Assembly (NCBI GenBank): GCA_030747395.1
Contig: JASLKT010000002.1
Span: forward strand, 1 to 39,078
DNA: 39,078 nucleotides
From: Candidatus Thalassarchaeaceae archaeon
GTDB taxonomy: Archaea > Thermoplasmatota > Poseidoniia > Poseidoniales > Thalassarchaeaceae
Reading direction: 5' to 3'
This document shows, piece after piece, positions 26,178-30,134 of this stretch; position 1 is the first letter of the stretch; every line of letters begins with the position of its first letter. The position numbers and the translations under genes were made by a program. The notes below the pieces were generated by a model. That model was not told the DNA's origin. It ran no database searches and saw only the letters and a program-made list of their open reading frames with translations.

Positions 26178-29100
26178 TCAACTGTCGTGTTCTAGCCACT
26201 CATCCATCTCTGGTGTTCTGTACCACCATTTGCCTTCATCATACCACCACTCGCACCCATTCTCATCAACCTTGTAATTAGGGTCATCCTCGGGAACGAG
26301 TTCCTCTTCAGGTTCTGCCTCAAGTTCAGTGGCTGGTTCGTCATTTGAGTGAACTATCGAGCGCTTTTTGGACTTCTTTTTGGGCTTCTTGAGAATTAAA
26401 CTCAACCCACCCCCAACGGCAATTAGTAAAATGACCACCGCGGAAATCAAAATCCATACAGTTGCACTCAAACCTTCCTCGGTATCTGGTGCGATATATG
26501 GGGTGTGACCTGTATTATCAGAATCATCACCGTTTGGATGAATGTCTTCTGGACAACCGGGGTTCTCCAAATTTTGCAGAGAGTTGGCATGAAGTGGGCA
26601 ACGATCAGGAGTTCGCGCACCAGGGATTAGTTGGCCGGGCCATGAAAGATTAACACGCATCTCATCGTCACTCCAAAGGCTGTTTGCGTAGTTGTCGTAG
26701 TAGCCATCACCGTCACTGTCCTTCCATTGGGTGTTGATGTTGGGTACAATGTCTTCTACGTTCGCCCAACCATCGCCATCAGAGTCAGTACATCCGCGTA
26801 GATTACCTGTTGATGTTCCCTCTTCATTCGGACAATCATCACCATCGGTACCATCAGGATTGTTACCAAATCCATCTCCGTCAGTGTCGACAGTTTGGGT
26901 TGGATCTTCAGGATATTGATCTACTGAGTCGATTGCGCCATCACCATCGGTATCACGTTCACTTTCTGAGCACCCATATGTTGCGGAAGATGGATTGTTG
27001 TCAACATCCAAGACTTCGGCCTCAGGTGTATTGAGGCACATATCGAGATCGTCGGTGACTCCATCGTAATCAGAATCGCGTTCGGATGGGGCACAACCTA
27101 GACCATCTACAAGTGTGATTTCTTCAGGTGGGGTTTCCTGACAGTTATCACCAAGAATGCCGGACAAACTATCCCCATAGCCATCACCATCCAAATCGGA
27201 ATGTTGACTTGGCTCATTGGGGAATGCATCATCGACATCTGCCCAACCATCACCATCCGTGTCAAGACAACCAATTCTACCACCCATATCTGATGTTCCT
27301 GCCTCGTCAGGGCAAGCATCAGCAAGGAATCCATCTGGGTTGTCTCCAAAACCATCACCATCTCGATCTTTATGCTGAGTAATATCTGACGGGAAGGCGT
27401 CTCCATATTCGGAAACTCTGATTCCATTAATCACATTCCCCCATGAATAATTATCACCGTAGCCATCACCATCGGCGTCGACCCATTGTGAAGGATTTCC
27501 AGGGAACATGTCATTCAAATCCGACCAGCCATCTCCATCTGTATCTGGGCATCCAAATCGATCTTGGTCAGATAAACCGTATTCCAATGGACAGTCGTCC
27601 GCCTGATATCCTTCAGGCTCATCTCCGAAGCCATCGCCATCCGTATCATTCCATTGGGTTGATTCTGAGGGGAATGCGTCGGCTGCGTCTGCCCAACTGT
27701 CCCCATCAGCATCTGGGCAACCCACTGTGGGCTGTGTACTCGTACCAGCAGAATTGGGACAATCGTCTTCCGTGTTGACCAGCCCATCTCCGTCATCATC
27801 ACGCTGGTTTTGAGCGCAACCAGATGCATCTACGGATAGTCCTGGTTCAGTATTCGTGCAATTGTCATCCCCATTCCAAACCCCATCGCCATCATCATCA
27901 GGTAAGAGATGTCGGAGGTCAATACCGATTCTGTCTCCGGCCATCACGCGCGAGAATGGGTCCAATCGAACAAATCCAATTTCATCGAAGTTGTCCTGAC
28001 CTTCTTCACTCAGCATCCATGAAAGGAATGGTCGAAGAATGTCGAGTTTGTCTTCGCGTATGACAAGACGATAATCATCCTGGAATGGCCAAACACCAGA
28101 TGTACTATTTTCAACCGAAGGGTGTATCGCTGGATTTCCAGCGGAAAGGGCATCTGCTGCCCCGTGCGTCCAATTGTCAAACAATGGAATATGATACGTT
28201 GTATTGCTCTGAATGGCAGCTCTCAATTCCGTGATTCCGATTACGTCATCGTTGTTTGAGGCACCATTGATGATTTCCTCACGAGTCTCTATGATATATC
28301 TCGCACGCCCAGATGGCGTATTTTCTCCTTCGAACCAGTCTTCTGGGAAACTACAATGGTCGCAGAACATGAATGCTGAAATCATCTGTGGTATCGAACG
28401 ATTTTCCCATCGATGGTAAATGTGGATTGGTTCATTTGGACAGGATGGATGTAAATCTCTCCATTCTGGTTCCCCATCCCCGTCGTCATTCGGTACAACA
28501 GAACTCCAAACCACTCCGGGATGAATCCCCGATGAGGAGAGTGTGGATTGAGATGCATCTGACAGAATCCATCGCAACTGTCCCATAGAAAGGCCCCCTG
28601 TCATGTTCAAACATTGGTGAGTCGCAGTATTCGGATCGACCATGAGGGAGGCTGGCATTCTTGCCACTGGTACTTCGATGAGTCTTGCACCGGTCGAGTC
28701 GCAATCGCGCATGCCACTGACTGAATAATTCGACAAGGTGGTTGTAAATCTCTCAGCAGCAGTACTGGATGATGCTGCAATCAATGGTGCATCTCCTTTA
28801 GGATTGACATCATTACACAAGAAATTCGTCGTTTGTATCGTCGTGCTGTTGAAGTGCATCGGAATGTAATCAGAGTGAGAATCTGCATATTCAAAGAAGC
28901 GTTCACCCATCAGTTCGCCTGTGACATCGCCACCCAGCCATGCATAAGCATCCGTTGAGAAATATGTGTAAATACGGCCATAATATCTAGCGCCGAAGTA
29001 TATCTTGGTCTCATCTAGCGACCAAGCGACGTCACGGGCACCACGACGTCCGGATGATTGTCCACCGCTACCGCCTGAGAAACTACCAAAACTGGCCTCA

Positions 29101-30134
29101 ACGGTCCAATCTGATGTGCGAACAATCCAAGTTGGATCATTGTCGCTGGTAGCAATGACGAAGTGTGTGCCTGCGTGATTGAAGGCAATCTCATTGACAT
29201 CACCACTGTAGGACATGGTATCCAAAAGAGTCCCATTAGAAGCGTAATAGATGTTGATGTCATTATCTGAACCTCCTGTCACAATCCAATTCCCATCTGG
29301 GCTCCAATCCAATCCAAGCGTGTAACCTGAATGATTGTGCACATTGAAGAATTCAGTCCCATTCGATGTCCAGAAAACGCTGAGTTCTTCACCATGAGTT
29401 GCTGCGACGAAACGCCCATCTGGACTTGTTTTAATGGTGTAAACATCGTCATCAAAATTTACGATATGAGCAATGGTCCAATTTGATGTATGGTAAGTTG
29501 TGACATTCTCATCCTTGCCACCAACATGGAGTAGGCTACCATTCGGGTTGAAGCGGGCTGCGTATGTATCATCATCATGGTTTGCAGAAAGATCAATCAA
29601 ATGTGTGGCTGTCTGAGTTGTCCAATCAATAGTGTATACATTCACTGATGCATTGTTGCTAGCCTCATATGCCGAAACAACGAGCATTGTTCCATTTGGA
29701 GTAAATGACAGGTCACGGGGATTGGATTGAATGGTCAACAGGGTTTTGATTTCATTTCCTGCCGCGTCGAGTAATTTAACGCAGTCACAACCATCAGCAC
29801 CGGCAAGAAGCATCCCGTTGGGTGCTACAGCGAGGGTGCGAGCCATCGAACTGCGGGAACTTGAGGTGGCAACGGTTCTGGCATAATTTGCGCCAACGAA
29901 ATCTGCCACCGTTCCTTGAATGATGTCAGGGGTTCCGTCGCCATCCGTATCAGGGCAACCAAGTTTTGTTGTTGTAGAGTTGCCAGGTGCAAAAGGGCAA
30001 TCGTCCACAGAATCATCGAATCCGTCGTTATCACCGTCTGCAGCAGAGGCTGGAGGATACCAAAACAAAACTGATGAAATCATCAGGAACGTCAAGAAAA
30101 TTGAGAGCCGTCGATTGGGGTTCACAATTCTCAC
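26178..30134 (-). CDS. Secreted/anchored receptor-like protein: signal peptide, beta-propeller-like repeats, PstS-like binding region, TSP3-type Ca repeats, C-terminal TM and aromatic cytosolic tail
   Basis: Signal LSIFLTFLMISSVLFWYPPASAA; WD40-like blade motifs (LDWSPDGNWIVTGGSDNDINIYYASNGTLL); PstS-like segments; about 16 DxDGDG-type motifs, most of them in the C-terminal half; TM WILISAVVILLIAVGGGLSLIL; tail ENGCEWWYDEGKWWYRTPEMDEWLEHDS. Confidence 0.85.
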   Translation of the reverse strand: MRIVNPNRRLSIFLTFLMISSVLFWYPPASAADGDNDGFDDSVDDCPFAPGNSTTTKLGCPDTDGDGTPDIIQGTVADFVGANYARTVATSSSRSSMARTLAVAPNGMLLAGADGCDCVKLLDAAGNEIKTLLTIQSNPRDLSFTPNGTMLVVSAYEASNNASVNVYTIDWTTQTATHLIDLSANHDDDTYAARFNPNGSLLHVGGKDENVTTYHTSNWTIAHIVNFDDDVYTIKTSPDGRFVAATHGEELSVFWTSNGTEFFNVHNHSGYTLGLDWSPDGNWIVTGGSDNDINIYYASNGTLLDTMSYSGDVNEIAFNHAGTHFVIATSDNDPTWIVRTSDWTVEASFGSFSGGSGGQSSGRRGARDVAWSLDETKIYFGARYYGRIYTYFSTDAYAWLGGDVTGELMGERFFEYADSHSDYIPMHFNSTTIQTTNFLCNDVNPKGDAPLIAASSSTAAERFTTTLSNYSVSGMRDCDSTGARLIEVPVARMPASLMVDPNTATHQCLNMTGGLSMGQLRWILSDASQSTLSSSGIHPGVVWSSVVPNDDGDGEPEWRDLHPSCPNEPIHIYHRWENRSIPQMISAFMFCDHCSFPEDWFEGENTPSGRARYIIETREEIINGASNNDDVIGITELRAAIQSNTTYHIPLFDNWTHGAADALSAGNPAIHPSVENSTSGVWPFQDDYRLVIREDKLDILRPFLSWMLSEEGQDNFDEIGFVRLDPFSRVMAGDRIGIDLRHLLPDDDGDGVWNGDDNCTNTEPGLSVDASGCAQNQRDDDGDGLVNTEDDCPNSAGTSTQPTVGCPDADGDSWADAADAFPSESTQWNDTDGDGFGDEPEGYQADDCPLEYGLSDQDRFGCPDTDGDGWSDLNDMFPGNPSQWVDADGDGYGDNYSWGNVINGIRVSEYGDAFPSDITQHKDRDGDGFGDNPDGFLADACPDEAGTSDMGGRIGCLDTDGDGWADVDDAFPNEPSQHSDLDGDGYGDSLSGILGDNCQETPPEEITLVDGLGCAPSERDSDYDGVTDDLDMCLNTPEAEVLDVDNNPSSATYGCSESERDTDGDGAIDSVDQYPEDPTQTVDTDGDGFGNNPDGTDGDDCPNEEGTSTGNLRGCTDSDGDGWANVEDIVPNINTQWKDSDGDGYYDNYANSLWSDDEMRVNLSWPGQLIPGARTPDRCPLHANSLQNLENPGCPEDIHPNGDDSDNTGHTPYIAPDTEEGLSATVWILISAVVILLIAVGGGLSLILKKPKKKSKKRSIVHSNDEPATELEAEPEEELVPEDDPNYKVDENGCEWWYDEGKWWYRTPEMDEWLEHDS

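Follow-up and report, generated by a model that had tools for sequence, protein, structure and literature searches.

A PstS-derived domain between a WD40 propeller and a TSP3-type stalk in a predicted surface protein of Marine Group II archaea

Marine Group II (Poseidoniales) archaea are abundant in the ocean. The known systems with which the protein described here can be compared include the PstS proteins and the prokaryotic WD40 propellers. In E. coli PstS the S, G and T of one loop contact the phosphate. In Poseidoniales the phosphate-binding ABC subunit is patchily distributed (PMC6336850) and thrombospondin genes are widespread, the thrombospondin-type proteins being regarded as adhesion factors (PMC6461757). 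In our protein a PstS-derived domain, a propeller and a TSP3-type stalk are found in a single chain, and a literature search for this propeller-PstS-TSP3 fusion found no paper.

Architecture and distribution of the fused protein

The window (the whole stretch of 39,078 nucleotides that was analysed) belongs to a genome of the Poseidoniales family Thalassarchaeaceae; the named records of the relatives that we fetched were Candidatus Thalassarchaeaceae and other Poseidoniales or Euryarchaeota assemblies. The ORF of interest encodes, in this order, a signal peptide, a TSP3 pair, a WD40 propeller, the PstS-derived domain, a TSP3 stalk, a transmembrane helix and a cytoplasmic tail. The features are as follows.

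26178..30134, reverse strand: whole ORF, 1318 aa, GTG start; full-length orthologues (1271-1382 aa) are built alike
30042..30134, reverse strand: signal peptide, residues ~1-31, from sequence inspection; hydrophobic N-terminal stretch in several orthologues
29925..30038, reverse strand: two TSP3-type Asp loops near the N-terminus, residues 33-70, from motif count; Pfam TSP_3 below cut-off
28959..29843, reverse strand: seven-bladed WD40 propeller, residues ~98-392 (Pfam, PDB, AF2, Foldseek)
28644..28958, reverse strand: PstS-derived domain, N-terminal part (~393-497), with strongly diverged equivalents of anion loops 1-3
27939..28643, reverse strand: PstS-derived domain, C-terminal part (~498-732); hhalign 99.9%, E 9e-38
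28395..28412, reverse strand: RWENRS, residues 575-580, at the position of the PstS phosphate loop DSDSGT
28164..28175, reverse strand: NWTH, residues 654-657, strongly conserved; N, T and H common to Poseidoniales PstS (NNDTHG)
26535..27902, reverse strand: TSP3-type stalk, residues ~745-1200, from motif count and profile matches below cut-off
26382..26477, reverse strand: transmembrane helix, residues ~1220-1251, from hydropathy
26181..26381, reverse strand: cytoplasmic tail, ending EWWYDEGKWWYRTPEMDEWLEHDS, a motif common to other surface proteins of the genome
30139..37155, reverse strand: S8 subtilase, 2338 aa, with a C-terminal hydrophobic anchor; upstream neighbour, 4 nt from the ORF

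The signal peptide, WD40 propeller, TSP3 series, transmembrane helix and tail that the first-pass annotation had read in this ORF were all found. The N-terminus is, by inspection, hydrophobic and continues with ...PPASA. The identity of the propeller, with its seven four-stranded WD40 blades, is beyond doubt: Pfam WD40 (PF00400) scored 43.8 bits (cut-off 27), PDB entry 2ymu matched with E 4e-40, over residues 31-280 of the AF2 model the pLDDT was mostly 76-96, with lower values for the last blade, and in Foldseek the model covered the seven-bladed prokaryotic WD40 domain 5yzv with a TM of about 0.90-0.91 of the target. We counted 14 DxDGDG-like TSP3-type motifs across residues 33-1139, N-terminal pair included. 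The corresponding profiles matched below their cut-offs, Pfam TSP_3 with 15.8 and 18.4 bits (cut-off 25; the higher score is that of the N-terminal pair) and NCBIfam MtsC (thrombospondin type 3) with E 1.6e-8. The tail motif DENGCEWWYDxGxWWYRTPEMDEW (window 26181-26384) is common to several surface proteins (G000 C32, C150, C67 and C92), and it follows the transmembrane helix in the three in which such a helix was seen (C32, C150, C67).

A survey of related genomes for the same fusion, as had been proposed, was positive: the whole architecture is kept in 33 of 145, with full-length ORFs of 1271-1382 aa. The fused domains form one clade (support 100/100), which divides into families f1 and f2, and this split fits vertical descent from before the separation of Poseidoniaceae and Thalassarchaeaceae. 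In a phylum sample of 390 genomes a fused copy was not seen in other families. The source genome also encodes a paralogue (C64; L092 9093-11810), which has the signal peptide, TSP3 pair, WD40 propeller and TSP3 stalk of the fused protein but lacks the PstS-derived domain. Its reading frame is cut short by the end of the contig, before any transmembrane helix or tail. Because of this paralogue, insertion of a PstS domain into an existing propeller-TSP3 surface protein is the simplest origin and the probable one, and since the fused clade is divided in the same way as the two families, the insertion would have preceded their split.

Ancestry of the middle domain and fate of the phosphate site

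Searched as a single sequence, the middle domain alone found no Pfam family and nothing meaningful in the PDB, and PF12849 did not match the window protein itself. When the 145 related genomes were searched with the domain, two groups were found, the whole-protein orthologues and PstS-type proteins. The latter were freestanding proteins of ~370 aa (about 30% identity, E down to 2.6e-31) and proteins with two or three copies. These homologues exceeded the PF12849 cut-off and matched TIGR02136 (PstS), 2/3 under its strict cut-off, PstC/PstA were on the same contigs, and in L051 a PstB-like ATPase ORF lay in the same gene run as PstS; they are, for these reasons, real PstS proteins. Aligned by hhalign, the 26 fused domains matched 10 Poseidoniales PstS with 99.9% probability (E 3e-35). 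PF12849 matched one orthologue (G074) at 31.3 bits (cut-off 27); in four others its matches fell short of the cut-off. Against the PDB the fused-domain profile gave weak matches to solute-binding proteins (4kd5, molybdate, E 0.02; 4n13, PstS, E 0.17). From the hhalign match to real PstS and the PF12849 matches in orthologues, the PstS ancestry of residues ~498-732 is therefore established at the level of sequence, which bears out the PstS-like middle region of the first-pass annotation. Residues ~393-497 are co-linear with PstS, and all 19 PstS sequences have counterparts of cysteines 440/478 and glycines 402/474; tested alone against PstS, this N-terminal part did not score significantly above column-shuffled controls (14.6 vs 14.1 for the best shuffle). 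The PstS-like segments listed earlier are present and in PstS order, but the first one, SSSTAAERFTTTL, was misassigned: its counterpart in PstS is the third loop, IGDMSRDW. The SST loop had been placed at SSSTAAERF, a segment that the alignment puts at GDMSR; what aligns with the SST(V) loop is WLGGDVTG at ~399-406.

PstS proteins carrying two or three PBP domains in tandem were also seen in Poseidoniales (L061:6529-9942, L063:779-3973, L062:7112-9655). Those of L061 and L063 adjoin enlarged ORFs for PstC (773-816 aa) and PstA (1195-1284 aa).

The PstS loop DSDSGTYEYF has become RW[E/D]N[R/K][S/T] in 26/26 orthologues (one with Q for the first R), and the S, G and T of the SGT loop, in the well-aligned part, are each kept in 0/26. 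RWENRS is the fourth most conserved of 348 six-residue windows, and R575, W576, N578, R579, R610 and E636 are conserved in the fused set only. At the other anion loops (GSST, GGGSGAG, GDMSR) the aligned residues are mostly changed: the T of GSST is retained in 20/26 and the Arg of GDMSR is absent in 26/26, but the loss of loops 1-3 is read from a weak alignment, since the N-terminal part, taken alone, does not resemble PstS significantly. Where dS was not saturated, dN/dS was about 0.05-0.10, indicating purifying selection. The phosphate site thus looks rebuilt, not decayed. Since the phosphate-gripping loop is gone and a different conserved loop was gained, the ligand of the PstS-derived domain is probably something other than phosphate, and the fused-specific residues conserved at the old ligand loop suggest that a binding site was retained there, possibly one for protein. 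The earlier proposal of a tethered solute-binding protein holds as regards PstS homology, membrane tethering on a TSP3-type stalk and the lack of an ABC partner; its choice of phosphate as the ligand does not, the SGT anion loop having been lost in every orthologue and the residues at the other three loops being mostly changed as well.

Transport genes and gene neighbourhood

No pstC, pstA or pstB was recognised near the ORF, and the ORFs scanned agree with the earlier remark that the window has no pst ABC genes. In the source genome (84% complete) there was no PF12849 match, and PstC, pstA and pstB gave none above cut-off. PstC was above cut-off in 25 of the 145 genomes. Among these relatives the Pst permease and the fused protein almost exclude each other: PstC was above cut-off in 1/33 fused genomes vs 24/112 others (Fisher P 0.008 counted by genome and 0.0055 by genus), and the one exception, G014, is 3% contaminated. 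This pattern is confounded by phylogeny, habitat and incomplete assemblies. A PHO4 Pit-type transporter was above cut-off in 116/145 genomes, many fused genomes among them; none was found in the source genome bin (84% complete). In six genomes (G045:C28, G057:C38, G064:C4, G023:C16, G021:C26, G025:C39) the PstC and PstA matches lay within one open frame of ~625 aa, which suggests a fused permease.

The ORF and the S8 subtilase stay next to each other in genera of Thalassarchaeaceae, as they do in one or two lineages of Poseidoniaceae: the pair occurs in g1, g2 and g4, and also in g17, and at one g15 locus the subtilase is one or two genes distant. The remaining g15 loci have no S8 subtilase upstream. 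In most of the Poseidoniaceae loci seen the two genes are not linked, and the partnership may therefore be restricted to certain lineages or be accidental. The other conserved neighbours, 3HCDH, IF5A and an OPT oligopeptide transporter, may be plain synteny.

Possible function and comparison with known systems

The structural test of the middle domain failed because the alignment lacked depth: with 11 sequences the AF2 model reached a pLDDT of 34.5, and including the propeller did not improve it. In Foldseek this low-confidence model ranked phosphate-binding proteins 1, 2, 4, 6 and 10, the top matches being mostly phosphate-binding or LysR-type (PBP-II-like) domains; none of them was significant (best E 0.36). 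The poor model is the one point in favour of reading the middle region as extra propeller blades or Ig-like beta domains, not a PBP, an alternative that the first-pass annotation had itself raised. We consider it very improbable and have rejected it, as the propeller is modelled as seven blades and is complete by ~392, the sequence that follows aligns to PstS with the profile E-value given above, and the predicted secondary structure of the region contains many helices.

It is also improbable that the protein is a membrane-tethered binding protein for phosphate (or a phosphate ester) feeding an unidentified transporter or sensor, as was initially proposed. Its PstS ancestry would fit such a role, and the near lack of Pst in fused genomes can be read as replacement, but that exclusion is confounded as described, many fused genomes have a PHO4 Pit-type transporter, and the SGT loop is lost in all 26 orthologues, as is, on the weaker alignment, the Arg of GDMSR. 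The idea of a substitute phosphate transporter was rejected. The PBP fold could instead be a ligand-free scaffold in a surface adhesin, lacking a small-molecule pocket and acting only as a rigid spacer or as a module for protein-protein contacts. The view of Poseidoniales thrombospondin-type proteins as adhesion factors (PMC6461757), the multi-domain stalked build and the loss of the anion loops are all in line with this, and we regard it as a possible, somewhat doubtful reading; the fused-specific conservation at the old ligand loop speaks for a retained binding site and hence against it.

We prefer, with a probability of about 0.5, to see the protein as a tethered surface receptor or capture module, derived from PstS, with a rebuilt non-phosphate cleft and a probable subtilase partner. 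It would be exposed on the surface of Marine Group II cells and span the membrane once; its PstS-type domain, set between propeller and stalk, would have lost phosphate binding for transport and would serve, through its rebuilt cleft, for reception or capture. The long, calcium-repeat TSP3 stalk would hold this domain off the membrane, and the propeller would be a protein-docking platform. In Thalassarchaeaceae its probable partner is the membrane-anchored subtilase encoded beside it; the protein might, for example, hold a protein or peptide substrate near the protease. The conserved position of the S8 gene 4 nt upstream and the OPT oligopeptide transporter among the neighbours are in line with this. 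More tentatively, the captured PstS domain, with a proposed new and nearly invariant RWENRS/NWTH/E pocket, may be a non-ABC tethered receptor for another ligand, possibly peptides released by the subtilase, in lineages largely without Pst. Its conservation across both families makes the fused protein a clear candidate surface receptor, and it would represent a case in which a transporter-associated binding protein was turned into a stalked surface module, a conversion that carries a defined motif change.

It is useful to compare the protein with the systems to which its parts are related. The seven-bladed fold is that of prokaryotic WD40 propellers such as the PkwA domain (5yzv) and 2ymu, from which our propeller differs in being probably extracellular and in being joined to other domains. 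The tandem PstS of L061 and L063 resemble the fused protein in that PstS-type domains of Poseidoniales are combined in an unusual way within a multi-domain protein, but their anion motifs are retained, their genes are part of Pst loci, and neither propeller nor stalk was seen in them. With the Poseidoniales PstS proteins (L049-L059; TIGR02136 / PF12849, PBP_like_2) the fused domain has in common a co-linear alignment, the GGLSMGQLRWI helix, the PNDDGDGxxEW loop, paired cysteines, the NxTH motif and the C-terminal GFVxL. Unlike these, the fused protein has no lipoprotein anchor and no pstCAB partner, its domain is set between propeller and stalk, and in place of the SGT phosphate loop of PstS it has RWENRS.
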